NCBI GenBank assembly: GCA_029432775.1 | Contig: JAROAZ010000004.1 | Location: forward strand, 1 to 64,000 | DNA length: 64,000 nt | Direction: 5' to 3' | Source of the DNA: Pontiellaceae bacterium B12227 | GTDB lineage: Bacteria > Verrucomicrobiota > Kiritimatiellia > Kiritimatiellales > Pontiellaceae | Shown here: positions 13,043 to 35,946 of the stretch, in pieces | How the letters are laid out: each line of letters starts with the position of its first letter | Position numbering within the stretch: position 1 is the first letter of the stretch | Notes under the pieces: model-generated | Seen by the model: only the letters and a program-made list of their open reading frames with translations | Told to the model about the DNA's origin: nothing | Database searches by the model: none | Position numbers and translations under genes: made by a program

Positions 13043-13043
13043 A

Positions 13044-17106: not shown

Positions 17107-18206
17107 GCCGCCTCCTTTGCTGCCGCCGCGCCTACGGCTTCGCCCACAGCCATACAGGTTCCGACAACACGTACCGACGAAAGCGCCATGGAATCCGCCG
17201 AAACGGAACGCCCCGCAGTCCAGAGATTGGAAACGGTATTCGACCGCAGCGCCCGCATTGGAATATCATAGGTTCCGTCGCCGTCGACATAGGAATACAG
17301 CACGCCTTTTTCAGCATCCCAGAATTCCATCGGCCAGCATCCTTTTGCCGCCGCATCATCGAAGCGGGCACCGGAGCGCACGCTCTGTTCGTCCAGCACC
17401 GCGGTGCCTTTCAGCCGCACGCCTTCCCGCTCCAGTCTTCCAGTGGAGGTCTCCACTATTTCCGAACATTGGAACTCCGGCAGTTCAGCCTTTAGAACTG
17501 AAAAAATATTGAGCGCCAGCGCTTCGGCATCGGCCCCGGGTTCCACGCTGACCTTGAGCAGATCCCGATCAAAAACGGTATAGCGTGCCGCCGCCGGCAG
17601 CCGGCCGGACTCCGCCGTCTTCCATAAAAGGTGCGGAACGCGAATCGGCAGCATCTCGTTCGGCACAACATGCGAGAGCCGGAGAATAAATCCGGCCAGG
17701 GCCGGATTCTTTGAGGACAACAAGTCAGCTCCGCAACGCTTTGCAACCGCCGCCCGCCCCGTGCAGTCAATCACAGCACCGGCCTCCAGTTCCAACCCTT
17801 GGAAACGGAACGACTCAATCCGGCCATCATTAGAAAAAACCTGTAGATCATCCACATCGGTAAAGAGCTTCAGATTCGGCTCCGCATCAACCCACGCGTT
17901 ATAAATCTGTTCCAGCATTTCGCCCGAACAGCGCAACAGCTGCACACGCCCCCGCCGCTCAACTTCGCCATCCGACGCATCCAGAAACTCACGAACCAGC
18001 CCTTCATTCACCAGCGTCGGCTTTTTGTAATCAGCCAGAAACATTCCACAGATTGGAAAACCCAGCCCCGCCACGGGTGTGCCGCCCAGCCGGCCGGTTT
18101 GTTCGATGAGCGCCACGCGGGCACCGCTGCGCGCAGCCGCAACCGCAGCCGGCACCCCACTGGAACCGCCCCCTGCAACAACAACATCAAACCGTTTCAC
18201 CGTCAT
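17103..18206 (-). CDS. FAD-dependent oxidoreductase
   Basis: A 367-residue flavoprotein with an N-terminal FAD Rossmann motif VVVAGGGSSGVPAAVAAARSG (about 8-28) ending at the acidic VALIEQTGRLGG, and a C-terminal FAD-binding LWTAGRSVSADS motif. The overall form matches the FAD_oxidored group (PF12831-like). Two-electron oxidation or dehydrogenation of a cluster intermediate is expected; arylpolyene clusters often include a flavoprotein. It lies between an ACP (13 bases away) and the acyl-AMP ligase (ATGA overlap). Besides one perfect palindrome at 17790 it holds three degenerate copies (17218, 17460, 18044), the densest of any gene here. Confidence 0.85.
   Translation of the reverse strand: MTVKRFDVVVAGGGSSGVPAAVAAARSGARVALIEQTGRLGGTPVAGLGFPICGMFLADYKKPTLVNEGLVREFLDASDGEVERRGRVQLLRCSGEMLEQIYNAWVDAEPNLKLFTDVDDLQVFSNDGRIESFRFQGLELEAGAVIDCTGRAAVAKRCGADLLSSKNPALAGFILRLSHVVPNEMLPIRVPHLLWKTAESGRLPAAARYTVFDRDLLKVSVEPGADAEALALNIFSVLKAELPEFQCSEIVETSTGRLEREGVRLKGTAVLDEQSVRSGARFDDAAAKGCWPMEFWDAEKGVLYSYVDGDGTYDIPMRALRSNTVSNLWTAGRSVSADSMALSSVRVVGTCMAVGEAVGAAAAKEAA
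17790..17805. repeat. Iterated palindrome inside flavoprotein gene
   Basis: A perfect TTCCAACCCTTGGAAA, translated as FQGLE on the minus strand. Degenerate relatives sit at 17218-17233, 17460-17475 and 18044-18059 in the same gene. Confidence 0.85.
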
Positions 18207-18219
18207 CCAGATTCCAAGT

Positions 18220-18462
18220 CTAAGCGGACTTCATTCGCTCCACCGAACGCGCGAGCGCGGTAATGGATGCAATATCCTCGCGTTGCATATCCGACGCCAT
18301 TAAATCGATCCCGTACTTCGTTTCAATAAACACCAGCAGTTCAACCATCCGCATAGAATCCAACCCCATTGTATGCAATGGAACATCATGCTTCAGTTCC
18401 TCAGCATTCACCGACAGGATTTCTGCGATCCGCCCCTTTAACTCTGATTCCGTTTTATCCAT
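18220..18462 (-). CDS. acyl carrier protein
   Basis: An 80-residue carrier protein with phosphopantetheine serine Ser36 in HTMGLDSMRMVELL. The GLDSM form differs from the GLDSL of the other two ACPs and may reflect a different partner set. The ATG at 18462 (MDKTESEL) is preferred to upstream in-frame starts because an AGGGG ribosome binding site precedes it and the upstream gene ends at 18488. It lies between the condensation-like acyltransferase and the flavoprotein, suggesting that one of these acts on its cargo. Confidence 0.9.
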   Translation of the reverse strand: MDKTESELKGRIAEILSVNAEELKHDVPLHTMGLDSMRMVELLVFIETKYGIDLMASDMQREDIASITALARSVERMKSA

Positions 18463-18487
18463 TACCCCTGTTCCCTGAAATTGTACG

Positions 18488-19780
18488 CTAAAATTCATAG
18501 AGCGCATTTTCGACGGCATTGACATCCCCCTCCGTCAACGAGCCCTCGCGCCATGAAACTCCCATATTCAACCGTCCGTTAATCTGGCTGAAGAAAAATC
18601 CAATACCCACCTGCGGCGGGATCAATGGAAGATGAAAAAGGTTCTTTATTCCCAGCCCTCCGAACGCCCCCCCTTCGAACAGGCTGCTTCCCACAATGCC
18701 GACACTGAATGACGCCTTGTTGTAGCGATTCATCAGTTGAAACAGGCGAATCGGAACCCCCCGGGTGAGTCCCATAAATCGCTGAAAACACTGGGGAAAT
18801 CCTGCCTTGGTCTGATTAAAAAACTGCGTTTTCAAATGGGCAATCAACTCTGACCGGTCCGAAAGTAGTCCCGTATTTATTTTAAAAAAGAACAGCGAGC
18901 AGTAGTTGAAAAAAGTGTTCTTCCAGGAAAAAGTCGTGCCTCGCAGATCCGTCGTACTCGGAACAATAAAACTGCCGCCCCGCCCTTTCACAGCTTTAAT
19001 CTGACTGAATGCGTTGCAGGCAGAAGCCAGCGCATAGGGCATAAACATCAGATAGCCCGCGTCCCGATCCACCCGTTTCTGCCAGGTACGGGTTTCATCC
19101 TCATTGAGTGTCCGCAAACGGAAATGCCCCGGGTTCCCCCTGGCCTTCCCCTTTTCATCCACACGGATCATTCCGGAACCGATCACATTGCGGTTCACCG
19201 TTTCCCCCACGCATCGGGCACTGGCAAAACCTTCTCTGATTTCCCGACGCCATTCCGGGTTCTGAGGTTCCGGCATGGCATCCAGTTCTTCCGGTTTAGT
19301 CCCACCAGCAATGAAGCGGTTTAGAAGCAACAGAAACTGCTCCGCACCTCGGGCATCCAACAGGCGATGATCAAATACCATCGTCAACAGACAATCGCCG
19401 GCCGATGGATAGACCAGATGAAACACCACGTATTCGCCTGGCTCAAACGGGGTATTCACCAGCGTTTCCAATGTCTGGAAAACAGCAGCATCCGCCACTT
19501 CATGAACCTCCACCCGAATGGATGGAACAGAAAGGTTGCGCGGCATACGCCAGATCGGGCGGAAGAATCGGTCGCGCGATAACCGACCGTTCAGCACCGG
19601 CAATTCAGCGGCAAAGGCTTGAACCGATGCAGCAAATGAGCCGGCATCCATTTTACCATCCAGCTGCAATACAATCTGCGAGGCATTGCCGACCCCACCG
19701 GTATTCCGCATCGTCATGCGGCACATCGTGTGGATCATCCAGTCCAGCCCATCCAGATAGATTGGTGCGCGTTTCGTCAA
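18488..19780 (-). CDS. condensation-domain-like acyltransferase
   Basis: About 430 residues resembling the CoA-dependent acyltransferase/NRPS condensation superfamily. The catalytic region reads VFDHRLLDARGAEQF, matching HHxxxDG with the essential second His and the Asp kept. A later segment PSTTDLRGTTFSWKNTFFNY resembles the second lobe of such folds. These enzymes join a carrier- or CoA-bound acyl group to an alcohol or amine. The neighbouring ACP suggests it off-loads or esterifies the assembled chain (inference). No ATG is available; the TTG at 19780 forms a TTGA overlap with the upstream stop, and a TTG at 19804 is the alternative. Confidence 0.72.
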   Translation of the reverse strand: MTKRAPIYLDGLDWMIHTMCRMTMRNTGGVGNASQIVLQLDGKMDAGSFAASVQAFAAELPVLNGRLSRDRFFRPIWRMPRNLSVPSIRVEVHEVADAAVFQTLETLVNTPFEPGEYVVFHLVYPSAGDCLLTMVFDHRLLDARGAEQFLLLLNRFIAGGTKPEELDAMPEPQNPEWRREIREGFASARCVGETVNRNVIGSGMIRVDEKGKARGNPGHFRLRTLNEDETRTWQKRVDRDAGYLMFMPYALASACNAFSQIKAVKGRGGSFIVPSTTDLRGTTFSWKNTFFNYCSLFFFKINTGLLSDRSELIAHLKTQFFNQTKAGFPQCFQRFMGLTRGVPIRLFQLMNRYNKASFSVGIVGSSLFEGGAFGGLGIKNLFHLPLIPPQVGIGFFFSQINGRLNMGVSWREGSLTEGDVNAVENALYEF

Positions 19781-20340
19781 TCCACAACCCCGACCACGTG
19801 GCAACGATCCATCGTATCGCTCAACTCATAAACCATCACATAATCCGCCTGCCCCTCTTCAATCATACGCCGGGCAATGGAGATCAGTTCGTCCACCTTG
19901 GAATCCTGCCGGCGGTAGTAGTAGAGCGGTCCCTGCAGGCCGAAGTGCACCGCCGCCTCGGCCAGCGGGCTGGAGGGCAGCGTATAAATAAACAGGTTGG
20001 CGCGGGCCATCGAACGGCCGCCATCCACATAGTCCTGGAAATAGTCCATATTGGCTTTTTCGCAACCGTATTCATCCATACCCAGCAGGCCGATCTCCTG
20101 TTTCTGCTCTTTTGAATAGTCCAGACCTGCATCCCGCATCGCCAGCGCGGTTACATAACAGGCTCGCTGGGCAATCGCGGGAAAACGACCGAAATTTTTG
20201 ACGGAATAAGCAAACAGGCCGTCTTCTTTTCCAAGCCCCCGGAGCGTCGCACGCGAAGCATACTCCACATCAAGTCCGAGCCGTTCGGAACCATAGGATT
20301 CTTTGCTCATCCACCCGCTTCCTAATACATCGATCTTCAT
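19777..20340 (-). CDS. short ketosynthase-like protein without catalytic cysteine
   Basis: A 187-residue protein resembling the N-terminal lobe of ketosynthases (MKIDVLGSGWMS, AQRACYVTALAMRDAG, then SPLAEAAVHFGLQGPLYYY). Where the nucleophile Cys should follow GLQGP there is YYYRRQ, so it cannot condense. Its ATG overlaps the stop of the complete ketosynthase by four bases. It is the second such KS plus cysteine-less pair in the cluster (compare 8615-10554), which points to a chain-length-factor or stabilising subunit. The two cysteine-less proteins differ clearly from each other in length and sequence. Confidence 0.75.
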   Translation of the reverse strand: MKIDVLGSGWMSKESYGSERLGLDVEYASRATLRGLGKEDGLFAYSVKNFGRFPAIAQRACYVTALAMRDAGLDYSKEQKQEIGLLGMDEYGCEKANMDYFQDYVDGGRSMARANLFIYTLPSSPLAEAAVHFGLQGPLYYYRRQDSKVDELISIARRMIEEGQADYVMVYELSDTMDRCHVVGVVD

Positions 20341-21464
20341 CGGGCGCCCCCTTTCTTCAGCACCAGCGAGGCGTTCACTCCCCCGAAACCGGCATTGGTG
20401 GACAGTACGTATTCCGCCTCTGACTCCTGCGGCTTTTTAAGCACCCATCCTGCAGCAGACTCTTCTGGGTGAGTCATGCGAACCGATGGAGGAACCAAAC
20501 CTGTTTCGAAGGTCTTCAGCGCAAGCATCGCTTCCACCAAACCGGCTGCTCCCATCGTATGACCAATGCCGCCCTTCACGGAATAAGTCGGACGCGGCGA
20601 TGAAAACACATCGTGAAATGCCGCCATTTCCATTAGATCGTTATAAACGGTGCCAGTTCCATGCGCGGCAATGAAGTCGATGTCTTTTTCATCCACCCTC
20701 GCAACCTTCAGCGCCGTTCGGATTGACCGGGCCAGGCCGGAACCATCCCGCAACGGTCCGGTCATGTGATTGGCATCGTTGCTCATGCCCCAGCCCACCA
20801 GCTCTCCGAGATTGGGTAATCCTTCCTCTTCAGCGCGAGCCTTACTCATCAAAACAGCAAATCCAGCGGCCTCCCCGATTGTCAGGCCATCATGCTCACG
20901 GTCAAACGGTCGCGAAGCATTGGAATCCAGTGCCATCAACGAGGAGAAACCGGAGTATAAAAATTCTGTCACCGGATCGCAGGAAACCACCACCGCACAA
21001 TCCACCTCGCCTGCGCGGATGGCTGAAGCCGCCAACCCCAGTGCCACCGTTGAAGAAGCACAGGCCGAAGAAACCACCGCTCCTTCGTCGTCCACACCAG
21101 TCAGCACCTGAGCCGCCCGCAGCAGTTCCGTCATGCAGCAGGCATGCGGTTCGCCGCGATCATACAACACCTTTTCTTCCACCCGGTCCATCTCGCCATT
21201 GAGCGTGGCGATGTATAGCTTTGCATCTTTCGGAATTTGTTTACCGGCGAGCACCTGTTGCAGCATTTGGAAAACCAACGATTTACCCGCGTGGTACGAA
21301 AGGCCGGGGATGATGCCGGCCATCGCACTTTTGAACTCGGTCGTATTGAACCGGTCCAGTTCCGCCAGTGCGCTCTCGCCGCTCATCAGGCCGTGCCAGC
21401 AGACATCCGCCCCGAGGCCATAGGGCGTGATTAAATCATACCCAGTAATCACTACATCATTCAT
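20337..21464 (-). CDS. beta-ketoacyl-ACP synthase
   Basis: A 375-residue complete ketosynthase with Cys135 in VSSACASSTVALG, His268 in IAAHGTGTVYND and His302 in SVKGGIGHTMGAAG. It is shorter than FabF, as seen for arylpolyene-type condensing enzymes. The ATG at 21464 (MNDVVITG) overlaps the thioesterase stop by eight bases and is preferred to an upstream in-frame start that adds 12 unrelated residues. With its cysteine-less neighbour downstream it likely forms a heterodimeric elongation unit (inference). Confidence 0.92.
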   Translation of the reverse strand: MNDVVITGYDLITPYGLGADVCWHGLMSGESALAELDRFNTTEFKSAMAGIIPGLSYHAGKSLVFQMLQQVLAGKQIPKDAKLYIATLNGEMDRVEEKVLYDRGEPHACCMTELLRAAQVLTGVDDEGAVVSSACASSTVALGLAASAIRAGEVDCAVVVSCDPVTEFLYSGFSSLMALDSNASRPFDREHDGLTIGEAAGFAVLMSKARAEEEGLPNLGELVGWGMSNDANHMTGPLRDGSGLARSIRTALKVARVDEKDIDFIAAHGTGTVYNDLMEMAAFHDVFSSPRPTYSVKGGIGHTMGAAGLVEAMLALKTFETGLVPPSVRMTHPEESAAGWVLKKPQESEAEYVLSTNAGFGGVNASLVLKKGGAR

Positions 21465-21936
21465 GCATGCCCCCCAACGTCCCGTCTTTCCATAAAACAT
21501 GCTGTTTCTCCAGCAACGGCGGAATCGTAAAACACGGTTCGCCCGTTTCTGCAGAACTGAAGAGCTGAACGGTGTATCCTGTTGCGGCCATACTGCCGTC
21601 CGCCTTCAGCACTTCGTATTCAATATTAATCCGCGCCGCATCGGTCCAGAGCATGCGGGCTTTCACCGTGAAAAGTTCATCCAGCAAAAGCGATTGATAG
21701 TAGTCCACGTGCAACTGCACAATCGGAGCGTACACCCGGGCCTCAAAGAAGTCCTCATAGCCCAGACCGCTCTTCCGGCGCAGCTCGGTGGATGCTTCTT
21801 CGAACAGCGTTGCATAATGACCGTGCCACATCACCGCCATGGCATCCACTTCACCGAACCGGGCATGACGCCGGAATGAAAACTCCAGCGGATCCGGACC
21901 GGGCTCGCGTTTGAAATAGCGTTTTTTTCTACGCAT
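21457..21936 (-). CDS. hotdog-fold acyl-CoA/ACP thioesterase
   Basis: About 159 residues of the 4-hydroxybenzoyl-CoA thioesterase/YbgC family. The signature segment is RHARFGEVDAMAVMWHGHYATLFEEAS, with the Asp of the usual tyrosine/aspartate site in GEVDAM and a following central helix; IVQLHVDYYQSLLLDE is the second conserved strand pair. Such a protein is a standard part of arylpolyene clusters and may edit or release acyl groups. The ATG at 21936 overlaps the dehydratase stop by eight bases. Confidence 0.87.
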   Translation of the reverse strand: MRRKKRYFKREPGPDPLEFSFRRHARFGEVDAMAVMWHGHYATLFEEASTELRRKSGLGYEDFFEARVYAPIVQLHVDYYQSLLLDELFTVKARMLWTDAARINIEYEVLKADGSMAATGYTVQLFSSAETGEPCFTIPPLLEKQHVLWKDGTLGGMHE

Positions 21937-22276
21937 CTTCAATCCTCAGTTTAAACTGCGCAACGCGTTTGCCAGCCGAAGTCAGGTTGGCCGTCAGTTT
22001 ATCTCCGCTCAACACGCAGGCTATTTCCAGGGGCTGTTCCGGAACGACCATCGACACAAACTTGGCATTCGTTACAGCCGATAACTGCGTGCGGCATCCC
22101 CGTATGCGATCGGCCATCACCATGGCCAGCGTAATCTGGCAGACGCCCGGCAGCACAGGCTGTTCCGGAAAGTGGCCCTTAAATCCGGTGAAAGTTGCAG
22201 GAAAAACCAGCTCCGCCGACGCGGTACCCTGGTCCACCACAACATGTTCTAAAAATCCGTCTATTTCTTTTCTCAT
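21929..22276 (-). CDS. ApeI/FabZ-type 3-hydroxyacyl-ACP dehydratase
   Basis: About 115 residues of the hotdog dehydratase family. The signature FKGHFPEQPVLPGVCQI contains the catalytic His of the GHFP-x-x-P-VLPG loop. In arylpolyene systems this type (ApeI) works as a heterodimer with an ApeP-type partner; here the only ApeP-like sequence is fused to a radical SAM protein at 25988-27457. Start ATG at 22276 or GTG at 22285; both overlap or abut the upstream lipoprotein gene. Confidence 0.88.
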   Translation of the reverse strand: MRKEIDGFLEHVVVDQGTASAELVFPATFTGFKGHFPEQPVLPGVCQITLAMVMADRIRGCRTQLSAVTNAKFVSMVVPEQPLEIACVLSGDKLTANLTSAGKRVAQFKLRIEDA

Positions 22277-22277
22277 A

Positions 22278-23009
22278 TCACTCACTATCCTGCAGAGAAT
22301 AAATCTCCTTCACGTGAAATATTATCCGATAATGGAAGCGTTTGTTATACAGGACCACGCCCTTCGGATACAGCTTTCCGTCGAGTTCTTCATAATTATA
22401 ATAGGTCGCAATAGCATCCGTTTTCCAACCTCTGGAAAATCGTTTTTCCGTCAGTCGCCGGTTCAAGCCGGAAAAAATCCATTCCGAGCCGTCGGCCTTG
22501 AAAATCATGCGGTCCTTTTTCACCTTCACTTCGGCATCCGCCGGTGGCAGCCAGTCGAGATACACCCGGCGCAGGTCCGCACCGATCGCCGCAAAAATTT
22601 TATCCTGATGCTTTTCCATCTGCGGCGGCACAAACAGGGGCTCCACGTCTTCGCCCCGGCCCTGAAGACCAAAGATGGAAACCCCCGTCGGGGTCATGCA
22701 GCTGAGCGCATAGGATTCCTCAGCCGGGTTCACCGAAAGATAACCCAGTCCCGTAAAGCCTTTGGTGAAGAATTTAAACACCACACTTTCCAGCAGTTCA
22801 AACTCGGTTCCCACCTTTGCGGAGAAGTCCGCAAGAACCGCATCGCTTTCCAATCCCCGGAAGTCCCCCTTCGGGTCGGCCTCGAACGGAATGGTTGAAC
22901 ACCCCACAAGACACAACAAAAACAATCCGACAGAAGCTCGCAAAGTTAGCAAAGAAAAACTCCCAGTCTGCATTGCGCTCTTAGCGAGCTTCTGTTGAAA
23001 CCCATTCAT
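22278..23009 (-). CDS. DUF3261-type outer-membrane lipoprotein
   Basis: A 243-residue lipoprotein with a hydrophobic segment ending in the lipobox LVGC. The rest resembles DUF3261 proteins, which are hallmark members of arylpolyene clusters beside MMPL exporter and LolA-like genes, and are thought to help place the pigment lipid in the outer membrane. The first dozen residues (MNGFQQKLAKSA) come from an inverted-repeat element at 22930-22995, so the original start may be the internal ATG at 22973 (MQTGSF). Its first ATG overlaps the exporter stop by four bases. Confidence 0.82.
   Translation of the reverse strand: MNGFQQKLAKSAMQTGSFSLLTLRASVGLFLLCLVGCSTIPFEADPKGDFRGLESDAVLADFSAKVGTEFELLESVVFKFFTKGFTGLGYLSVNPAEESYALSCMTPTGVSIFGLQGRGEDVEPLFVPPQMEKHQDKIFAAIGADLRRVYLDWLPPADAEVKVKKDRMIFKADGSEWIFSGLNRRLTEKRFSRGWKTDAIATYYNYEELDGKLYPKGVVLYNKRFHYRIIFHVKEIYSLQDSE
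22930..22995. repeat. Inverted-repeat mini-element at the 5' end of the DUF3261 gene
   Basis: Perfect 12-base arms ACAGAAGCTCGC (22930-22941) and GCGAGCTTCTGT (22984-22995) enclose AAAG-rich sequence. The arms closely resemble those at 50727-50807. It lies inside the coding sequence and supplies part of the signal peptide. Confidence 0.65.
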
Positions 23010-25360
23010 GCTACGGACTCCTCTTTGAGTAGCAGAGAGCAGAGGGCCGGAACCACCAGCATGGATGTGGCGTATCCGGCGGAGATCCCGCCGACAAGCG
23101 TCAGGCCGACAGAAAACAGAGCCGGATGGAGCGTAAAGAGCAAAGCCCCGGCTCCAATTAATGTGGTCCCTGCCGAAAGAGAAATCGCCGTGCGGGTTCC
23201 GAGATTGAGCGCATGCGTATGGGCGTGCACAAAAAAGATGCCATAGTCCACGCAGAGGCCAATCACAATGATGCCCGAAACCAGATTCATGACATTCAGT
23301 TCGGTACCCATCAGCCTGACCAATGCCGCAACACTCGCCACGCCCGCCGCCGCCGGCATCAGCACGATTAAAACTTTCCGGACATCCTTCAGAAGAACCG
23401 CGCTCATCAAAAGTACCAGCACTAAAGCCACTAAGGTGACCCTGCCGAATTCGCGGCTGTAATCTTTTGCCAGCGAGTCCGCAATGGCACTTCTTGAAAT
23501 TACAAAAACATCCGGCACATCAGCCAGCGCATCGATCAGCTCCGGTTCATCCGGAAAGAAGGAAAACACCCGCGTCCCGCCATCGATCTCCGCAACAAAG
23601 CGCGACTTCAGTTGCTCAAACAACTGGTTGTCCTGCGGCTCTTCATTGCTCACCGGCGGAATTTCCAATGATTGAAAAAACGGTTCAAATGCATCCGCCG
23701 CAAAACCATAAGGCTCGCCCTTCCGGGAAAAGAGGGTTTTTACTTCAGCCACTTTATCGGGGCTCCAGAGTTCCGTCCAGCGAGCGGCATTTGCCCGGCG
23801 GTGCTCAGCTGACTTCCAGATCATTGAAAAGCTGGCCAGGTCATCGGGCAGCACTTCAAACAACCGGTCGTTCCGGGCGAGCGCAACCTGATAATCCATA
23901 TCCGAAACCACGGCAACGGCCTGTGCGGCACTGCCTCCTCCGAAATTATTCTGAAACCGTTCTTCTGTTTCAAGAATGGCTTTCTCCGTTCCGTCCAGCC
24001 CCATGATGTCGGAATCGAACTCCACCTGAAACGCAACCGGAACAGCCGCGGCCAGCAGAACGGCAAAAACACCGACCGTTACCCACGGCAGCCTCACAGA
24101 ACCCGCCGGCCCCGCCGTTCGGCTCTTCGGCGCGCCCGGCTTCAGGAAAACCGGCAGAATAAACAGCGCCCCGAACACGGAAAAAACCACACTCAGCAAG
24201 GCAAAAATGGCGAGTTGGTGATAGCCCGGGATCGAACTGGAATAGAACGCCGCGAAAACTCCCCCCGTTGTCAGAGCCCCGAGCATGACCGGTTTGGCCA
24301 CCGACCGGACAGCCTCCAGCCGCGATGTGGATCGGTGAACTGCCACATACACGTGAATCCCGTAGTCGATGGCAATACCGCTCACCACGGATCCGAAACC
24401 GAGCATCATCGGCGACAGCGTTCCGAGTAGAAAGGCGGCAATATTCACGGCAATCAGCAGTGCAGCAAAGGGTATGATGAAAATGAGATTCGCCCGCAGA
24501 TCGCGGAAGAAGAAAAGAAAAAGGAGCACAAAGGCGATGCTGGCAATAGTGACGGTCAGGCTGATGTCGTGCCGGATCACCTTTTCATTGCTGATGGTGT
24601 GCAGATGGCCGCAAACCATTTCCGACTCGACCGTGGAAGGAAGTTTTTCCAACCGTTGGAAAAGATCGTTCACCAAAGCCTTCGACCCCGCCGCATCGGT
24701 GAATGGAATATCCGTTTCCAGCACCACCAGAATCCGATCGCCGGCGGCATTCATCAGGTGACCGTTTTCAATGGACATGTCATAGCCGAATGAGGCCGAG
24801 AGCGCCCGGATTTTTTCGATCATGGCCATCTGAATATCGAGTGGATCGCGCTGAATCATGGATGCCATAAAGGAACCTTCCGGCTTCAGCAGCTGAACAT
24901 ATTTTTTCCGAAGGATGGAGGCGATGCCTTCCGGTGTGGTTTTCTTTTCCAGCTCCGCCAGACCGGATGCGCCGAGCAGTTCCGGAGCAAGCTCAAGAAA
25001 GGTGCCGACATCGCGAATCATCTGGTCTTCATCCACGTCGCTGATCAGCCGCACCCTATCCAAATCGGAGAGCGAAGCCACAAACTGATCGGCCGCGGAA
25101 AACAGGTCCGACCGGTCGGATGCCCCTTCGGCCAGCGCAAACGATACGGCCACCTTGGCCGACATATCAATATCCTGCAGGTAACTCACAGCCCGGCGGG
25201 TGTCGCTTCCGGCCGGCAGCATAACCTCCATGGAATGTTCAAAGGGAACAATCAGCAGGCCGAGTCCGGCAAGCACCATCAATGCAATAACGCCCGCGGC
25301 CACCATGCGCGGGCGGGCCAGCAGTTTATTAAAGAAGGTTGGAAACCATCCTTCAGCCAT
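23006..25360 (-). CDS. MMPL/RND-family lipid exporter
   Basis: About 784 residues and around twelve membrane segments in two repeats, each with a large periplasmic loop. The two RND/MMPL signature helices are visible as GIAIDYGIHVYVAVHRS and IGLCVDYGIFFVHAHTHA. This is the transporter class that moves arylpolyene lipids out of the inner membrane, and it sits between LolA-like and DUF3261 genes as in those clusters. ATG at 25360, preceded by GGGAGG, is preferred to an upstream ATG at 25399; it overlaps the LolA-like stop by eight bases. Confidence 0.93.
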   Translation of the reverse strand: MAEGWFPTFFNKLLARPRMVAAGVIALMVLAGLGLLIVPFEHSMEVMLPAGSDTRRAVSYLQDIDMSAKVAVSFALAEGASDRSDLFSAADQFVASLSDLDRVRLISDVDEDQMIRDVGTFLELAPELLGASGLAELEKKTTPEGIASILRKKYVQLLKPEGSFMASMIQRDPLDIQMAMIEKIRALSASFGYDMSIENGHLMNAAGDRILVVLETDIPFTDAAGSKALVNDLFQRLEKLPSTVESEMVCGHLHTISNEKVIRHDISLTVTIASIAFVLLFLFFFRDLRANLIFIIPFAALLIAVNIAAFLLGTLSPMMLGFGSVVSGIAIDYGIHVYVAVHRSTSRLEAVRSVAKPVMLGALTTGGVFAAFYSSSIPGYHQLAIFALLSVVFSVFGALFILPVFLKPGAPKSRTAGPAGSVRLPWVTVGVFAVLLAAAVPVAFQVEFDSDIMGLDGTEKAILETEERFQNNFGGGSAAQAVAVVSDMDYQVALARNDRLFEVLPDDLASFSMIWKSAEHRRANAARWTELWSPDKVAEVKTLFSRKGEPYGFAADAFEPFFQSLEIPPVSNEEPQDNQLFEQLKSRFVAEIDGGTRVFSFFPDEPELIDALADVPDVFVISRSAIADSLAKDYSREFGRVTLVALVLVLLMSAVLLKDVRKVLIVLMPAAAGVASVAALVRLMGTELNVMNLVSGIIVIGLCVDYGIFFVHAHTHALNLGTRTAISLSAGTTLIGAGALLFTLHPALFSVGLTLVGGISAGYATSMLVVPALCSLLLKEESVA
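24647..24662. repeat. Iterated palindrome inside exporter gene
   Basis: A perfect TTCCAACCGTTGGAAA, translated as FQRLE on the minus strand in the first periplasmic loop. A one-mismatch copy (TTCCAATGATTGAAAA) is at 23663 in the same gene, translated as FQSLE. Confidence 0.85.
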
Positions 25361-25991
25361 CCCGCTTGACCTCCCAGGCATCTGAAGGAACCGGCTCATT
25401 CAGTACGGTATTAAAGAATAGAATCGACGTAGTATCGCCGCCCCGGTCTTCGATCACGATCTTCTCCACATAAGCCAGATCTGCCCGGGCGCTGATGGTT
25501 ACGCTGTTGATCACTTTTCCGACCATGCTGTCAGCTTTCGGAACGAATCGTAGCACCGGAGGTTCTGCGCTCTCAACTGTCAGCTCATAATCATTTAACA
25601 GCGATTTAAACTCGCCGGAAAACCACTTTTCAATCTGGCCGATGATCTCTTCAAAAACGGGGTCCCCGGAGGTTTTCTGTTTCTGGATTTTATTGCTGTC
25701 TTCGTCCCATTGAATGGCGGTATCGCCGTTGAGTACCAGGGCATAACGAATCGGCGATTTGATCCGCCAGGCCATCCGGTCCGGATTCTCCAGCGTAATC
25801 GAGCCATTCATTGTGATGACGCGCTTAAAGATCTTGAGCGATTTTTCCTGCCGGAATTCGGTCTGAACGGTTTCGATTTTGGAAAACTCCGCTTCCAGCC
25901 GTTGGAGCAGCTCCTCCTGATCTCCCATCGCGGAGATCGTCAACAGGAGGGTCAGGCAGAATAATTTCCGAAGTCCCGATGATAGGTTCAC
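25353..25991 (-). CDS. LolA-like periplasmic lipoprotein/lipid carrier
   Basis: A 212-residue secreted protein: an N-terminal signal peptide (LRKLFCLTLLLTISAMG) followed by a LolA-type beta-barrel sequence with FSKIETVQTEFRQEKSL, the typical first strand, and ENPDRMAWRIKSP. It probably carries the product between inner and outer membranes for the MMPL exporter next to it. It begins with GTG in a GTGA overlap with the radical SAM fusion gene. Confidence 0.87.
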   Translation of the reverse strand: MNLSSGLRKLFCLTLLLTISAMGDQEELLQRLEAEFSKIETVQTEFRQEKSLKIFKRVITMNGSITLENPDRMAWRIKSPIRYALVLNGDTAIQWDEDSNKIQKQKTSGDPVFEEIIGQIEKWFSGEFKSLLNDYELTVESAEPPVLRFVPKADSMVGKVINSVTISARADLAYVEKIVIEDRGGDTTSILFFNTVLNEPVPSDAWEVKRDG

Positions 25992-27457
25992 GCGGTGGCC
26001 TCCTCGTGGTAGATTTTGATCTGGCCTTCGGCGATCAGCTCTTCGCCCCGCAGGACCGTTCCATTCACAATACTGAATGCACCGAAGCCGGTGTCCTTTA
26101 CGGCATTTATCTGGAGCTGGTCTCCCACATTGGCCGAACCATAAAACTTAAACCCTTTCGCTCCGAGCAGGAACCCGGCAGGATCTGCCTCGAGGTGTCG
26201 CGTTCGGAATCCGTTAAACAGCGCGGCGGCCTGCGCAACCATTTCAATATAGGCCTCTTTCTCCAGATAGCCTTCGTCATCCAGAAAAATATTAGACTCC
26301 TCCACGCTAAATTCCACTGAAGCTTTGCGCTCACCGACGGACAACAGCGTATCGACCATTTTCATGGGTGCCTGCTGAGGAATCAGTCCGACGGCACACA
26401 TCGGCAGGCGGTCGATCTCTTCCTGCTTATCGGAATTTTTCCAACAGAGAGGGTCGGATGCCAGATAGTCGCCCGTCATCTGATAGGCCGCTCCGCGGCA
26501 GCCGTAGCAACCTTCCGCTTCCGGACACGCCGCACAAGGCCCCTTGATTTCTTCCAGATGATTCCGCAAGTCCTGAATCACCTCGCTTCCATCAATGATC
26601 TGCTTAAGCGACTGCTCACGGATGTTACCGACCGGCAGATCCACCCCGACGCACGGCATGACATTCCCGATGGCATCCACATAGCAGGAGAACTGATGCC
26701 GCATGCAGCGTTCGCCCGCCAGCGGCGGCTGCGGTTTCCATCCTTCTCCGAATCGTTTGCGGTCAGCTTCTGAAAAGGTTTTGAACAGCGCTTCGATTTT
26801 TGCGGGATCGGCATAGACCCAGTCGTTTTCAACAGCGCCCCCCTGCGGGGTAATCATTTCAAAATAGGGATCGATCTGCTGATCGCGCAGCCATTCCCAC
26901 ATGTCCGCGAGCTCGTCATAGTTGACTTCACTGATGATCGAGCTGCAGGCCATCGGCTTTCCTCCATTGCCATATCCCGCCGCTTTCAGGTTGGTGAAGG
27001 CATCGGTGATGATGTCGTGCGCATTAGGCATGCCGCACAGACGGTTCTGAATTTCGGGATCGCGGGAATTGAGCTTCAGCACCACCTTGACATCAAAACC
27101 GGCCAGACGTTTGGCGTTCTCCGGAGAAATATTGGAGCCGTTGGTGAACATTTCAACACTGATCTCCTGACTGCGAATATATTCCATGACGTCGAATATT
27201 TTCGGATAGATCATCGGTTCTCCGCCAAGAATAATAATACCTCGCGCGCCCATTTCTCCTGCCTGATCGACCAGTGCTTTTATTTCGTCGAGGCTCAATT
27301 CATTCCTGGTCTCGGCATCCTGATAGCAGTATGGGCATTTAAAGTTGCAGACCCGGCTGCATTCAATTTCCATCGTCAGGAGCTTGCCGGCTGCAGCGGC
27401 CTCTTTGATCTCTTCCAGCGAAAATCCGGCTTCATCGCAAAATGCATGACATGACAT
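25988..27457 (-). CDS. radical SAM/SPASM enzyme fused to an ApeP-like hotdog dehydratase domain
   Basis: A 489-residue two-domain protein. Residues 28-345 form a radical SAM enzyme: CxxxCxxC as Cys37, Cys41, Cys44 (VCNFKCPYC), GGEPMIYP as the SAM-binding GGE motif, and a cysteine-rich SPASM region (CMRHQFSC, MPCVGVD, CAACPEAEGCYGC). Residues 347-489 are a hotdog domain like ApeP-type 3-hydroxyacyl-ACP dehydratases (LIPQQAPMKMVDTLL, EMVAQAAALFNGF). In ApeP proteins the first motif is PH-x-x-PM; here His is replaced by Gln. One continuous frame with no internal restart supports a true fusion. I know of no described example of this combination. Confidence 0.87.
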   Translation of the reverse strand: MSCHAFCDEAGFSLEEIKEAAAAGKLLTMEIECSRVCNFKCPYCYQDAETRNELSLDEIKALVDQAGEMGARGIIILGGEPMIYPKIFDVMEYIRSQEISVEMFTNGSNISPENAKRLAGFDVKVVLKLNSRDPEIQNRLCGMPNAHDIITDAFTNLKAAGYGNGGKPMACSSIISEVNYDELADMWEWLRDQQIDPYFEMITPQGGAVENDWVYADPAKIEALFKTFSEADRKRFGEGWKPQPPLAGERCMRHQFSCYVDAIGNVMPCVGVDLPVGNIREQSLKQIIDGSEVIQDLRNHLEEIKGPCAACPEAEGCYGCRGAAYQMTGDYLASDPLCWKNSDKQEEIDRLPMCAVGLIPQQAPMKMVDTLLSVGERKASVEFSVEESNIFLDDEGYLEKEAYIEMVAQAAALFNGFRTRHLEADPAGFLLGAKGFKFYGSANVGDQLQINAVKDTGFGAFSIVNGTVLRGEELIAEGQIKIYHEEATA

Positions 27458-27459: not shown

Positions 27460-28743
27460 TTATTTCCTCAAATCAATAAATCGAACCGGCTTACGCGATT
27501 CAGGGGTGAAAACGACCCGGCGTATGTCCGCCTCGGGTTCAACAATCACTTCGGGCTTCACCCGAAGGCGCGCCTGCAATCGGCGCAATACCACTTCAAT
27601 ATCCACCGCCTGCTTCCTGAAGGCCAGATGGACCACCAACCGGTCTGAAAGCGTTTCCTCGGCATAGACCTCCAGATAGTATTCGCTGATTTCCGGCATT
27701 TCATCGAGCACCGTAAAAACGGCTTGCGGGTATAGACTGGTGCCATGGACTTTCAACAGCTGTTTTTTACGACCTAGAATCGGTCCTAAACGGGGGGAGG
27801 TTCTTCCACAGGAACAAGGTTCGCGATCAACAAAGCTTACATCGCCCGTTCGATAGCGAACCAACGGCATACCCTGCACATTGAAGGGCGTAACTACAAC
27901 TTCTCCCGGTTCCCCATCAGGGACCCCGTTGCCTTCTTCGTCCACAATTTCAACCAGCCCCAACGACGGATGGAGGTGCCCGCCAGCCTGCGCGGTGCAT
28001 TCGCAAAAGGTGGTCACCGTTTCAGACGAAGCATACGTGGAAAATACTTTTGCGCCCCAGATCCGCTCCAGATCAACCGAAACGGACAAGGGATTCATGG
28101 CAGCATCTTTCAACGGTTCTCCAATGCATATGAGCTTGTCGATGGTGGTTGAGGGCAGGTCCATTCCCCGACCGGCAAGATAAATTCCCAGTTTCCGCAA
28201 AAAAGAAGGCACGCCTACGACTGTGGTCGGATTGGTGTGCTTAATGACCTCGCCATGCCCTTCCATGGTCCCGTGCCCATTACGAATGGAGGCCGCACCC
28301 ACAGCCTGCACCCCGAGAAAATAGGCTAAGCCGGCAATAAAACAGCGGTCCATGGTACAGGTGAGCAAAACAATATCTGTGGAGGAAAGCCCACAGGCAT
28401 TGAAAGCCCGCTCTTCGTTATAGGCCAACCGTTCGAGGTCGCCCCGGGAATACATAATCTTGGTCGGCCATCCCGTTGTACCGGAAGAAAAGACGATGTC
28501 CGCAACGTCATTCGGTTCCACCGCAACAAATTCCGAGTTCCGAATCGAAACTTCCATTTTATCGGTCAGCGGGAGGTCTTCGAGTTGGACGGTATCGAGA
28601 TCCAACCCATGGAAACGTTCTTTATAGAACGGCGAATATTTGGAACAAAAGGTTAAATGCTCACGCAACAACCGTTCGGTTGCCCGCTGGACTTCTTCGC
28701 GCGCACCGAATTCAAGCGCATCATCTCGGAATTTAAACGTCAT
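27460..28743 (-). CDS. PaaK-like phenylacetate/aryl-CoA ligase
   Basis: A 427-residue adenylate-forming ligase of the PaaK type, which is shorter than standard ANL ligases. Motifs: P-loop FSSGTTGWPTK, ASSETVTTFCEC, the characteristic YRTGDVSFVDREPCSCGRTSPRLGPILGR with its paired cysteines, and a C-terminal catalytic lysine domain. PaaK relatives activate phenylacetate, benzoates or other aryl acids, so this is the best candidate for starter-unit activation. It is three bases upstream of the radical SAM fusion and overlaps the acyltransferase gene by four bases. Confidence 0.9.
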   Translation of the reverse strand: MTFKFRDDALEFGAREEVQRATERLLREHLTFCSKYSPFYKERFHGLDLDTVQLEDLPLTDKMEVSIRNSEFVAVEPNDVADIVFSSGTTGWPTKIMYSRGDLERLAYNEERAFNACGLSSTDIVLLTCTMDRCFIAGLAYFLGVQAVGAASIRNGHGTMEGHGEVIKHTNPTTVVGVPSFLRKLGIYLAGRGMDLPSTTIDKLICIGEPLKDAAMNPLSVSVDLERIWGAKVFSTYASSETVTTFCECTAQAGGHLHPSLGLVEIVDEEGNGVPDGEPGEVVVTPFNVQGMPLVRYRTGDVSFVDREPCSCGRTSPRLGPILGRKKQLLKVHGTSLYPQAVFTVLDEMPEISEYYLEVYAEETLSDRLVVHLAFRKQAVDIEVVLRRLQARLRVKPEVIVEPEADIRRVVFTPESRKPVRFIDLRK

Positions 28744-29489
28744 TCAGTCAGCTCCATTCGATCCAGCTCTTCAGAGATTCGTTCGCGCACCATATTCTTG
28801 AACTTGAACGGGCTGAGGTCCTTGTAGGCTTCCTGCAAAACCGGCTCCAGCGTCCTTACGCGGATGCTCACCGGCTGTAGAACCAGCGTTCCCTTGGGAG
28901 GGGCCTTCTCCGTACCGGAGAGACAGACCGGAACCACGGGCACGCCGGTTTCCTGTGCAAGACGAAAAAGCGAACCATGAAACGAACCCATTTCCCTTGA
29001 GGTTGCGCGGGTACCTTCCGGAAAGGCCGCAATAGAGACCCCCTCCTTCAGAAAGGCTGCACCGCGTGCTGAAAACTCGTCGTGCGACATTTCCCGGATG
29101 CTCTGATACCCCGCAAACTTCGCAAAAAATCCAAGGACCGGAAGTTTGAACGGCCAGATGTTCACCACCTGAATAATCTCTCCGGGGAGCTTCGCCATGG
29201 TGAAGGCATCCGAGGAAGAGCGATGGTTGCAAACATAAATACACGGCAGTGGCGGTTTTCCATATGGATGCTCTCCGCGCACCTTCAGTAACGGTTCCCC
29301 CATCACCATCATGACTGTTCCATACACTTTAATGAGGAAGCGGGTGCGCTCCATTGTTTTACGCCACGAACCAAACGGAGCAAATACCAGTCCAATCAGA
29401 ATCAGAACAGGGATGAGCAGCGCGGAAACGATGAAGAAGAGTGAATAAAAGGCCAGGTTTAACCAGACGGTTTGGAGACGGAGCAACAT
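28740..29489 (-). CDS. PlsC-like 1-acylglycerol-phosphate acyltransferase
   Basis: A 249-residue membrane-associated acyltransferase with an N-terminal hydrophobic segment, the catalytic HX4D in CNHRSSSDAF, and FPEGTRATSR as the glycerol-phosphate-binding motif. It may attach the chain to a glycerolipid, parallel to or instead of the LpxL-like protein with the altered motif. It follows the interrupted ACP gene by nine bases. ATG at 29489 has CGGAGG just upstream, partly within the ACP end region. Confidence 0.9.
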   Translation of the reverse strand: MLLRLQTVWLNLAFYSLFFIVSALLIPVLILIGLVFAPFGSWRKTMERTRFLIKVYGTVMMVMGEPLLKVRGEHPYGKPPLPCIYVCNHRSSSDAFTMAKLPGEIIQVVNIWPFKLPVLGFFAKFAGYQSIREMSHDEFSARGAAFLKEGVSIAAFPEGTRATSREMGSFHGSLFRLAQETGVPVVPVCLSGTEKAPPKGTLVLQPVSIRVRTLEPVLQEAYKDLSPFKFKNMVRERISEELDRMELTE

Positions 29490-29872: not shown

Positions 29873-30445
29873 ATGAATAAAGCATATCTATTACTGGTTC
29901 TTCTGGTCGCAGGCTTCAGTACTCAGGCAACAGAAAACTGGTATAATCAGGCATTTCTCGGGGGTGGTACCTCCATAAAGGGATTCGGAGCAACCGATCA
30001 GGAAGTACGCACAGTTGATGTGGTCTTCCGCCATGCCCGCCTTTTTCACGAAAAAAGTGAAGGATGGATCAAGGGCCGTCATGAATTCTGGATGGAGGTT
30101 CCTGTTGCTATCATTGTCCATGATTCGGATTCCGTGGATGATAATGACTTCGGCATCGTGGGCCTTAACTTCCTGGCCGCATGGATTTTCCCCGAATCGG
30201 CCATTGGATCGCCCTACCTCATGATTGGCGGCGGTCCACAATATGTTCTGGCCGATATAGAGGGCGTCGGATCCGATCTTTGCGGAAACTATCAACTGGG
30301 TTGTGGAACACGTTTTCTGATGATGCAGAAGCACGAGATCAACCTTGAAGTGCGCTATCACCACATTTCCAACCTCGGCATGGCCGACCCCAATGTGCCT
30401 CTGAATTCGGTAAAATTCTATCTCGGAGCAACCCTGCCCTTCTAG
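29873..30445 (+). CDS. PagL-like lipid A 3-O-deacylase (outer-membrane barrel)
   Basis: A 190-residue protein: signal peptide (MNKAYLLLVLLVAGFSTQA), alternating beta-strands, and the PagL/acyloxyacyl-hydrolase hallmark RYHHISNLG near residue 160, holding the catalytic His and Ser, then a terminal aromatic residue (ATLPF). PagL removes the 3-O acyl chain of lipid A at the outer membrane. It is divergent from the ACP end of the biosynthetic operon and 14 bases before a radical SAM gene on the same strand. It may remodel LPS to accommodate the product (inference). Confidence 0.8.
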   Translation: MNKAYLLLVLLVAGFSTQATENWYNQAFLGGGTSIKGFGATDQEVRTVDVVFRHARLFHEKSEGWIKGRHEFWMEVPVAIIVHDSDSVDDNDFGIVGLNFLAAWIFPESAIGSPYLMIGGGPQYVLADIEGVGSDLCGNYQLGCGTRFLMMQKHEINLEVRYHHISNLGMADPNVPLNSVKFYLGATLPF

Positions 30446-30459: not shown

Positions 30460-31869
30460 ATGAAGATCCTGCTCGTTAAACCCAAGGCCCGCCTCCAGAC
30501 CATCCGCAAACTCGGGGGGCTCATTTTTCTGGAACCGCTCGAACTCGGCTACGTCGCCGCTGCAGTGCCAGAAGGACATTCAGTTGAAATTCTCGACCTC
30601 CGGTTGGCCCGGAATCCGGACCGAATCTTTCGCGCCAGACTGAAATCCCTGCAACCGGACCTGATTGGTATCAGCAGCTATACCCATGAAGTCACCAAGG
30701 TCATCGAGTTGGCCGGGCTGGCCCGGAAAACCAGCCCGAAGAGTAAAATTGTGATCGGCGGGCACCATGCCACCGTCCTGCCCGGCGACTTCAACCGCCC
30801 GGAGTTCGATGCCATTGTGCGCGGCGAAGGATGCGCCCCGTTTCATGATGTTGTCCAATGTCTGGAAAAAGGAAACACACTGAGCCACATTGAAAATGTG
30901 ATGATCCCGGGAACAAACTGGAGCAGAGAAGAGGCCGAGGAGCTTCCCCTCTACCCGGCACCCGACACCCTGCCGGAACCCAAAAGAAATTTATGGAACC
31001 CCGAAGACTACCGATGCTTCTGGCCCACCATGAAACATCCGCAATGGCAAACCGTCTTTCCAAAAACCGCCCTGCTCCGCACCTCGTTCGGGTGCTGCAT
31101 GAACTGCAACTTCTGTGTGATCCCGTTGCTCAGCCGGCGCACCCATATGCCGCGTGATCCTGAAAAAGTGGTGGATGAGCTCGAAAAAATTCAACAGGAC
31201 CACGTCTATTTCTGCGACGACGAAACCTTCATCGATCCCGGTCACGCGCAGCGGATTGCAGAAGCCATTCAACGAAGAGGGATTAATAAAAGGTATTTCG
31301 CCTGGGCGCGCTCCACCACCGTCAACCGGCACCCCGACCTGTTTAAGCTATGGCGATCAATCGGACTCGACTGTGTTTTCCTTGGAATGGAAGCCGCTAC
31401 AAACGAGCAACTTGACAGTATGGACAAACATTCAACCATTGAAGAAAATCAACAGGCCCATCAGGCTCTGATCAATATGGACATTGCCGTACAGGCGGCC
31501 TTTATGGTGAATGCCGATTATACAGAGAAGGATTTTAACGTCCTCTGCGACTACATTGAGAAGATTCCCCCGGCGCAGGTCACCAGCACCGTCTTCACGC
31601 CGTCGCCCGGCAGCACGGCCTGGCATGAGGAAAAGGATAAATATATCTGCCACCCCTACGACCTGCACGACTGCATGCACCCGTTGACCCGAACAAAAAT
31701 TCCGTTGCGAAAATTCTACCGTCACTTCTCGCGCGTTGCAGAAATCGGAGGCAAACGAAATCCGCTACGGAATCCCCAAACCCGCATGATGCCCCGCGAC
31801 ATATTCCGCATCATCCGCTCCGTTTCCGGCTACTCCTCCGCGCTCAAGAATGCATGGAAAGATTTTTAG
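30460..31869 (+). CDS. B12-binding-type radical SAM enzyme (third in the cluster)
   Basis: A 469-residue protein: N-terminal B12-binding-like domain (MKILLVKPKAR, VIGGHHATVLPGDF, RGEG), radical SAM motif CCMNCNFC (Cys212, Cys216, Cys219), and a YFCDDETFIDPGHA segment typical of the B12-dependent BchE/HpnP-like group. It is the only radical SAM gene of the cluster on the plus strand, 14 bases after the PagL-like gene. HpnP-type relatives methylate lipids, but the family alone does not fix the reaction. It ends in TAG. Confidence 0.9.
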   Translation: MKILLVKPKARLQTIRKLGGLIFLEPLELGYVAAAVPEGHSVEILDLRLARNPDRIFRARLKSLQPDLIGISSYTHEVTKVIELAGLARKTSPKSKIVIGGHHATVLPGDFNRPEFDAIVRGEGCAPFHDVVQCLEKGNTLSHIENVMIPGTNWSREEAEELPLYPAPDTLPEPKRNLWNPEDYRCFWPTMKHPQWQTVFPKTALLRTSFGCCMNCNFCVIPLLSRRTHMPRDPEKVVDELEKIQQDHVYFCDDETFIDPGHAQRIAEAIQRRGINKRYFAWARSTTVNRHPDLFKLWRSIGLDCVFLGMEAATNEQLDSMDKHSTIEENQQAHQALINMDIAVQAAFMVNADYTEKDFNVLCDYIEKIPPAQVTSTVFTPSPGSTAWHEEKDKYICHPYDLHDCMHPLTRTKIPLRKFYRHFSRVAEIGGKRNPLRNPQTRMMPRDIFRIIRSVSGYSSALKNAWKDF

Positions 31870-32844: not shown

Positions 32845-33213
32845 TCAATTCAGCGAAGCCTCCAGAATCTCCGCCACCAGCTCCGGGCTGTTGTATAAAA
32901 AAACTCCGGATACCAAAACCACATAGCCCGTACCGTCCACCACCAGGGTAAGCGGTGTACCCAGCACCCGCAGGCTTATGTCTTTAAACCGGCTCAATTT
33001 CTCGCGCTCCACAAGATACCCATTCAGGTCGCCAACCTGATACACCTCATAATGCACACCTAACGACTTCATCTCCTCCTCGGAAACACTGTCCGCATCG
33101 AACCAGACCATTTCTCCCGAGTCGGTATGCTCCCAAAGCCATTTGGTGCATCCGGTCAACACCCCGAGCGAGCTGCAGGCTAACCCATTTTTTAATAGAG
33201 TCCTTTTAAGCAT
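32845..33213 (-). CDS. small lipoprotein adjacent to ketosynthase
   Basis: A 122-residue predicted lipoprotein (MLKRTLLKNGLACSSLGVLTGC). The C-terminal half has a thioredoxin-like flavour (RVLGTPLTLVVDGTGYVVLVSGVF), but no CxxC. ATG at 33213 overlaps the ketosynthase stop by eight bases, so it is translationally coupled to the cluster. The function is unknown; a role in lipid export or folding is only a guess from context. Confidence 0.75.
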   Translation of the reverse strand: MLKRTLLKNGLACSSLGVLTGCTKWLWEHTDSGEMVWFDADSVSEEEMKSLGVHYEVYQVGDLNGYLVEREKLSRFKDISLRVLGTPLTLVVDGTGYVVLVSGVFLYNSPELVAEILEASLN

Positions 33214-34432
33214 CCACTTTCCGGCAGACCAATGCGGCATTAATGCCGCCAAAAGCAAAACTGTTTTTAATGATGATGTTCACTTCTTTTTCCAACGGTT
33301 GGAAAACGTGCTGAATGCCTTCGCACGTTGGATCAACCTGTTCCAGATTGAGTGTCGGCACAATCACCCCGCGCTTCATCATTTCAAGCGTAGCAATCAG
33401 TTCAATGGCACCGGATGCTCCCAGCGTATGGCCCATATGGCCTTTCAGACTGCTTACGGGAACCGCGTCGCCGAAGATCTCGCGCAGTGCACCGGCCTCT
33501 TCAACATCGCCGTGCGCCGTGGCCGTTGCATGTGCACTGATGTAATCGATTTCCAATGGTTGGACGTCGCTCTCTTTCAGCACCTGCCGAAGGCAGCGCA
33601 CCATGGCATCGGCATTCGACTGGCTGATGTGCGCCCCGCTTCCGCAGGTGCTGTACCCCAGCACCTCGGCATAAATTTTCGCCCCGCGGGCCACAGCTAA
33701 ATCCATATCTTCCAGCACCAGAATACCGGCCCCCTCACCGCAAACGAGCCCATCGCGATCCTTATCAAAGGGCCGGGGTGTAGTTTGGGGCGAATCATTG
33801 TGATGCGATGAAGTGGCGAACAGCACATCGAACGATCCGGTTACGGTGGGATGCAGTTCCTCGGCCCCGCCGCACAGCATTCGATCCTGCCGGCCCAGAC
33901 GAATGAGATCGAACCCGGCTCCGATGCCTTGAAGCCCGGAAGCACAGGCCGCAGAAGGTGCATATACGGTTCCGCTGATGCCGAGATACTGCGACACATT
34001 CATGGCCGCCGTGTGGGAAACACACTGAAAAAATTTGGTGGAAGGCAGTTGGGAAATATCATTTTCCGGCAACACCAGCTCAAAGGTTTCGGTAATGCTG
34101 GCCGCACTCCCCATCGTGGAACCGATTGCACAGCCGGTGCGGTCCGATGCAACGTCCTCATCAGAGAGTCCGGCATCTTCAACCGCCTGCTTTGCCGCAA
34201 TAGCGGCAAACTTGGAAAGGCGCCCCATGGAACGGCGCTTCTGCCGGGGAATCTGTTTTTCGTTTTCGAGCACGGCGGGGGCACCCACCAGCGAGTGCAA
34301 CCCCTGATAATTCGACCAGCTCTCCATTTTCTCAACGGCCGAACGACCTTCCAGCAGGCCCTCCATCATTTCTTCCGGCTGATTACCCAACGGGGAAATG
34401 ACCCCTACACCTGTAATAACAACGCGTTTCAT
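33206..34432 (-). CDS. beta-ketoacyl-ACP synthase (FabF/ApeR-like)
   Basis: A 408-residue complete ketosynthase: Cys163 in APSAACASGLQG, His301 in ISAHATATAHGD (usually HGTST) and His335 in LKGHMGHTLGAS. Unlike the other two it has no cysteine-less partner beside it, matching the standalone third ketosynthase (ApeR role) of arylpolyene systems, which may start the chain. It overlaps the desaturase-like gene by four bases. It has one perfect (33290) and one near-perfect palindrome (33551). Confidence 0.92.
   Translation of the reverse strand: MKRVVITGVGVISPLGNQPEEMMEGLLEGRSAVEKMESWSNYQGLHSLVGAPAVLENEKQIPRQKRRSMGRLSKFAAIAAKQAVEDAGLSDEDVASDRTGCAIGSTMGSAASITETFELVLPENDISQLPSTKFFQCVSHTAAMNVSQYLGISGTVYAPSAACASGLQGIGAGFDLIRLGRQDRMLCGGAEELHPTVTGSFDVLFATSSHHNDSPQTTPRPFDKDRDGLVCGEGAGILVLEDMDLAVARGAKIYAEVLGYSTCGSGAHISQSNADAMVRCLRQVLKESDVQPLEIDYISAHATATAHGDVEEAGALREIFGDAVPVSSLKGHMGHTLGASGAIELIATLEMMKRGVIVPTLNLEQVDPTCEGIQHVFQPLEKEVNIIIKNSFAFGGINAALVCRKVDA
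33290..33305. repeat. Iterated palindrome inside ketosynthase gene
   Basis: A perfect TTCCAACGGTTGGAAA, translated FQPLE on the minus strand near the C-terminus; a copy with one arm mismatch is at 33551. Confidence 0.85.
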
Positions 34433-35919: not shown

Positions 35920-35946
35920 CCGGCCCCCCTAGGCTTGGCTTGTTCT

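Follow-up and report, generated by a model that had tools for sequence, protein, structure and literature searches.

In Pontiellaceae bacterium B12227, an anaerobic marine organism, one gene encodes a polypeptide of 489 residues in which a radical SAM/SPASM enzyme is followed by an ApeP-like hotdog domain. The gene lies at 25988-27457, on the minus strand and with an ATG start, in the 64,000-nucleotide stretch of contig JAROAZ010000004.1 that was analysed here (positions 1 to 64,000; "the window"). The fusion is real, conserved and apparently undescribed, and it appears to be a variant of aryl-polyene-type machinery. Taken as a whole, the protein may be read as a tethered two-station enzyme that would combine the ApeP-type half of a dehydratase with a radical step on the acyl chain or its head group, a reading to which a probability of roughly 0.62 is assigned. 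Through this covalent fusion, present in about 30 genomes, radical SAM/SPASM chemistry is attached to one defined station of an assembly line of the type II fatty-acid/polyketide kind, and the fusion provides a testable handle on the role of radical SAM proteins in fatty-acid-like clusters, a question that has stood since the ladderane proposals of 2009.

Anatomy and distribution of the fused protein

The single frame, its three N-terminal cysteines, its GGE motif, its SPASM cysteine cluster and a hotdog domain from about residue 347 were all recognised in a first-pass annotation, which left the strand unsaid, and each was confirmed. The radical SAM core (approximately residues 30-200) carries the CxxxCxxC motif of the AdoMet [4Fe-4S] cluster at Cys37-Cys41-Cys44 and GGEP at 78-81; the SPASM region (approximately 250-340) holds the auxiliary-cluster cysteines C251, C269, C308, C311, C317, C320 and C338. 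Across 41 aligned sequences both sets of cysteines, and GGEP as well, show no variation, and the Pfam matches reach 4e-21 for Radical_SAM and 6e-10 for SPASM (PF13186, 39.6 bits against a cut-off of 21.5). The N-terminal half has the look of an active radical SAM/SPASM enzyme and gives PDB matches to SkfB, SuiB, MoaA and PqqE.

The hotdog part, residues 347-489 (25991-26419, minus strand), scores 17.2 bits (E 0.004) against the ApeP-like family PF22817, for which the orthologue in locus L008 reaches 25.7 bits; because the window score falls under the curated cut-off of 27, the domain is called ApeP-like and divergent and is not filed as a PF22817 member. The hotdog fold itself, on which the first-pass reading depended, is supported by an AlphaFold model of this part (pLDDT 86.5), whose top PDB match in a fold search is 6qsr_B (ApeP; E 2.1e-10), also the best PDB match in a sequence search (1.7e-6). 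A model of the whole protein reaches a pLDDT of just 67, and large parts of the SPASM region and linker fall below 50, too low to read domain orientation from it.

Fused proteins number 29, found in 25 of 346 genomes of the window's class, three planctomycete-side genomes (the order of genome G004) and one Omnitrophota MAG; their hotdog domains form the alignment sample used below, from which the row of an ACP fusion (L115) was left out. The closest relative is in a genome of the same genus (G083, loci L118 and L119; 8.7 Mb, about 56% GC locally), at 79% identity. A scan of 84,980 species genomes returned full-length fusions in three Kiritimatiellales MAGs at 71-76% identity and, at 46-49%, in a MAG named Brocadiaceae, one Planctomycetota genome and one Omnitrophota genome. 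A frameshift or assembly artefact is ruled out by the 28 orthologues that are fused likewise, and stops within some matches proved to be normal gene ends, with full-length open frames of 493-510 amino acids. In a tree of the radical SAM core the fused proteins group together, but weakly supported branches place two stand-alone SAR324-type proteins within the group, and the two outgroup rows were too distant; a single origin of the fusion is no more than a possibility. The fusion is thus not unique to the window genome. No paper describing a radical SAM/SPASM-hotdog fusion was found in the open-access literature searched, and to that extent the first-pass statement that no such fusion had been described holds.

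The hotdog domain and its ApeI-like partner

The catalytic histidine of FabZ and FabA is that of the GHFP motif, and the acid that works with it is contributed by the partner chain, from the helix that follows; the conserved LPH(R/x)PM stretch is an element distinct from GHFP. The aligned fused hotdog domains contain no GHFP-like motif or its histidine, so the fused domain does not have His and acid on one chain and is no self-sufficient dehydratase of the FabZ/FabA kind. The catalytic Glu405 is present in 29 of 29 fused hotdogs, and together with an ExxAQ motif it is invariant or nearly so. P360-Q361 is as the first-pass annotation described, but its proposal that the usual catalytic histidine has become glutamine was not borne out: the catalytic residue is the GHFP histidine, and position 361 is Gln in 18 and His in 11 of the 29 fused proteins, the two alternating between close orthologues. 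The difference between PH and PQ is neutral, and a catalytic-residue change at this position is rejected.

The complementary residue is found in the same operon. An ApeI-like hotdog dehydratase subunit, encoded at 21929-22285 on the minus strand, has the intact GHFP histidine, as noted earlier, with Thr at the acid position, and it scores 30.4 bits for PF22818 (cut-off 28.5). Its best PDB match is 6qsr_A, so that the two window proteins correspond, one to each chain, to a single heterodimer of known structure, the "Dehydratase Heterocomplex ApeI:P" of Xenorhabdus doucetiae (6QSR). ApeI and ApeP have been described as heterodimeric, with a single active site (PMC8041823). Among ten ApeI partners compared, GHF is present in all and the acid (Glu) in only two (L010 and L130), so the half-site split is not absolute. 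Because the fused domain keeps the Glu and lacks the GHFP His, because ApeI has the complement, and because the two match chains B and A of 6QSR, the fused hotdog very probably forms a heterodimeric dehydratase with ApeI, in which it is the ApeP half. This enzyme would act on 3-hydroxyacyl-ACP and be an obligate heterodimer of the fused hotdog and the ApeI-like protein, and Glu405 from the one chain and the GHFP His from the other would make up one active site per heterodimer.

The first-pass annotation had instead suggested a hotdog without catalysis of its own, there only to hold the acyl chain for the radical SAM site. The missing GHFP His agrees with that suggestion, to the extent that the domain is no dehydratase by itself, but the conservation of Glu405 and ExxAQ, the complementary His in the ApeI of the same operon and the neutrality of PQ versus PH make a dead domain unlikely. 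Natural variants argue in the same direction. A stand-alone ApeP-like hotdog is encoded at L155:4182-4691 (genome G417), in an otherwise similar operon from which the FlxY-like ligase and the radical SAM gene are absent; because the hotdog is encoded alone there, the dehydratase part can evidently occur with no radical part attached. In three further loci (L128:6043-6993, L133:9326-10276 and L126:8601-9539) proteins of about 312-316 amino acids retain SPASM and hotdog with the radical core gone. Those of L128 and L133 adjoin FlxY and acyltransferase genes, and no ApeI was recognised near the L128 variant. On this evidence the fused hotdog most likely is a half-site dehydratase subunit, not a dead substrate-binding domain.

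The operon and its predicted product

Between 29489 and 10975 the window genes, all on the minus strand, overlap or are almost contiguous. The run begins with a lysophospholipid-type acyltransferase (ApeD-like; 28740-29489, PF01553) and a PaaK/FlxY-like acyl-CoA ligase (27460-28743), which scores 416 bits for the NF053551 FlxY model, below its cut-off of 520. The fusion gene follows, overlapped by 4 nt by a gene for a LolA-like periplasmic chaperone (ApeL-like; 25353-25991, PF03548), for which LolA2_flexi is the best NCBIfam model, again below cut-off; both flexirubin matches of the cluster, LolA to LolA2 and ligase to FlxY, are thus sub-cut-off. Beyond it lie an RND/MMPL lipid exporter (ApeM-like by family match and conserved synteny; 23006-25399), a small lipoprotein at the place of the LolB-like ApeN (22278-23009, by position and synteny only, with no family match), the ApeI-like gene, a 4HBT hotdog thioesterase (ApeK-like; 21457-21942), a FabF-type ketosynthase (20337-21500) and a short KS N-domain protein that is probably chain-length-factor-like (19777-20340). 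A 438-residue protein (18488-19804), without a Pfam or NCBIfam match, is conserved in the operons of some relatives and looks condensation-like by eye only. The remaining genes encode an acyl carrier protein (18220-18525, PF00550), an FAD-dependent oxidoreductase (17103-18206, PF12831), an AMP-forming acyl ligase (15721-17106), a B12-binding-type radical SAM protein without family assignment (14420-15697), a member of TIGR04072, rSAM_ladder_B12, the lipid biosynthesis B12-binding/radical SAM family (13044-14423; 621 bits, cut-off 360), a family 2 glycosyltransferase (11864-13096) and an LpxL-type acyltransferase (10975-11907), the last two together being ApeJ-like.

A second KS plus short KS pair (9376-10554 and 8615-9379; 8615-10554 in all) and an upstream block (33206-36666) are also on the minus strand; the block comprises FabG (35947-36666), a CrtD/CrtI-like desaturase (34429-35919) and a FabF-type KS (33206-34432), and it also adjoins the fusion in L008, L009, L010, L121, L122 and L130. 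Three B12-type radical SAM genes accompany the fusion, at 13044, 14420 and, on the plus strand, 30460. The last of these (30460-31869), divergent from the operon and adjoined by a PagL-like gene (29873-30445), is nearest to HpnR, at 216 bits against a cut-off of 650. Among relatives the usual order is acyltransferase, FlxY-like ligase, fusion, LolA, RND exporter, lipoprotein, ApeI, thioesterase, KS, short KS, B12 radical SAM, TIGR04072 and GT2, with local rearrangements.

The gene set fits the aryl polyene core of KS/CLF, KR, ApeI/ApeP, ACP, ligase, TE and Lol/RND export, as compared with a published list of cluster genes (PMC8253772), with ApeN assigned by position and ApeG left out. A type II FAS/PKS-like setting is supported by this inventory, and the cluster is predicted to be of an anaerobic aryl-polyene/flexirubin type with extra radical SAM genes. 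The yellow Pontiella desulfatans F1T has been suggested to produce carotenoids and/or aryl polyenes, and P. sulfatireligans F21T has neither the genes nor the colour (PMC7356697). The yellow Pontiella isolate, of the window's genus, probably carries the fusion.

The main rival to modification of the chain itself is a starter-unit role, in which the radical SAM/SPASM half and the adjacent FlxY-like ligase would make or load a head group before chain growth, the fusion merely co-locating enzymes. The ligase gene lies directly before the radical SAM gene, fused or not, in most operons read, both are absent from the L155 operon, and no tyrosine ammonia-lyase or chorismate lyase that would supply an aromatic starter was recognised in the window cluster with Pfam and NCBIfam models. 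Fusion to a dehydratase subunit, and in locus L129 to an ACP, nevertheless indicates a carrier-bound stage; flexirubin clusters have a FlxY model of their own, which would fit a general role of the ligase in polyene synthesis; and in L122 and L124 the fusion stands without FlxY beside it. A starter role is therefore possible, though clearly the less probable course.

Radical chemistry and comparison with known systems

The radical SAM core also occurs apart from the hotdog. Stand-alone radical SAM/SPASM proteins with a separate hotdog gene are found in the SAR324-type loci L011 and L012 and the anammox-side loci L145-L152, and at L129:10405-11802 (genome G357) a related radical SAM/SPASM core carries an ACP domain (GLDSLGL motif; PF00550, 8e-10) where the hotdog would be. 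Within the window's class the fusion and TIGR04072 are each present in 25 of 346 genomes, 20 of them shared (Fisher p ~2e-23, a value that ignores kinship). In the class of G004, ten of ten genomes with TIGR04072 above cut-off have a strong radical SAM/SPASM match, and a strong match without TIGR04072 is seen in one further genome only, that of the ACP fusion. No TIGR04072 protein above cut-off occurs in the genomes of the SPASM-hotdog loci or of the lone-hotdog locus, and in four genomes (G182-G185) radical SAM/SPASM genes lie elsewhere and TIGR04072 is absent. On the variant loci and these counts, TIGR04072 is the usual companion of the radical SAM core, and ApeI-type machinery that of the hotdog.

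The ACP fusion of L129 lends support to chemistry on ACP-bound chains and is the best independent hint for carrier-bound chemistry. The first-pass idea of radical chemistry on an ACP-bound chain is accordingly plausible and better supported than before; its other part, a hotdog that only binds substrate, does not stand beside the conserved Glu405 and the complementary His of ApeI. In the favoured two-station reading, the radical SAM/SPASM half would be held at the dehydratase station by the fusion and would modify the ACP-bound chain, or the head group of that chain, by an oxygen-independent radical reaction, and the TIGR04072 B12/radical SAM protein would belong to the same pathway; that it modifies a carrier-bound intermediate at this station is the somewhat favoured view. 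A more specific proposal, that it acts on the nascent ACP-bound polyene docked in ApeI:hotdog and couples dehydration to a radical C-C bond-forming or desaturating step, so making a lipid class undescribed in anaerobes, must be considered doubtful.

SPASM proteins often act on peptides, and the radical SAM half finds its top structural matches in SkfB and SuiB. Its nearest characterised relatives have heme precursors and peptides as substrates rather than acyl chains. A RiPP-like role, with a peptide or protein (possibly the ACP itself) as target, is nonetheless highly improbable, as the setting is fatty-acid/polyketide-like throughout and no precursor-peptide gene was noticed, short of a thorough search for small ORFs or a peptide-recognition domain.

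The cluster's radical SAM enzymes might also cyclise a polyene to a ladderane-like or other polycyclic lipid. Ladderanes are regarded as general in anammox bacteria, and stand-alone radical SAM/SPASM proteins of 42-43% identity are encoded directly before TIGR04072 in anammox-side FASII loci. Loci of this kind were proposed for ladderanes by Rattray et al. (PMC2649909). Yet of the roughly 40 genomes that have hydrazine synthase alpha only five were found to carry the radical SAM/SPASM gene, an argument weakened by the many incomplete MAGs among them (the alpha subunit matched 42 genomes, two of them with many matches resembling other proteins). D. psychrophila, with syntenic clusters, had no detected ladderanes (PMC2649909), and the lipid description of Pontiella mentions none (PMC7356697). 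A ladderane role for the fusion gene, lowered by this distribution, is quite unlikely. In the class of G004, TIGR04072 above cut-off and radical SAM/SPASM occur in few hydrazine-synthase-positive genomes, and a TIGR04072 paralogue scoring about 320-340 bits is found widely; it may be the better bearer of the "ladder" name. To our knowledge no anammox bacterium is in pure culture, whereas the yellow Pontiella isolate is available as a probable carrier of the fusion.

Among known systems, the heme-modifying AhbD and NirJ2 provide the nearest named models for the radical SAM half (TIGR04545 and TIGR04055, 134 and 126 bits); these scores are far under the 500-bit cut-off, the window has no heme pathway context, and the fusion has the extra hotdog. 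The anammox and Desulfotalea FASII loci (Rattray 2009; L145-L152) resemble the window in bringing together a PaaK-type ligase, radical SAM/SPASM, TIGR04072, FabG, ACP, hotdog, MMPL, a phytoene-desaturase-like protein and GT2. Their radical SAM protein is stand-alone, however, and their dehydratase looks like a self-sufficient FabZ: the five anammox-side hotdogs read (L145, L148, L149, L151 and L152) all have GH(F/Y) and Glu on one chain. Aryl polyene and flexirubin clusters share with the window the KS plus short KS pairs, FabG, ApeI, ApeP, ACP, ligases, thioesterase, GT2/acyltransferase, LolA, RND exporter and lipoprotein. The window differs in having four radical SAM proteins in or beside the cluster, a CrtD-like desaturase and an FAD oxidoreductase, in its want of a recognised aromatic starter enzyme, and in that clusters like the one in the window are carried by anaerobes. 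ApeI:ApeP of 6QSR offers the same arrangement of two different hotdog subunits per cluster, His on one and acid on the other; sequence identity is only about 23%, and the window ApeP is fused to a radical SAM/SPASM enzyme. Another half-fusion is known from A. baumannii, where ApeI is joined to the acyl-ACP synthetase/ligase ApeH (PMC8041823); there it is the other half of the dehydratase that carries the fusion, whereas in the window it is the ApeP half.
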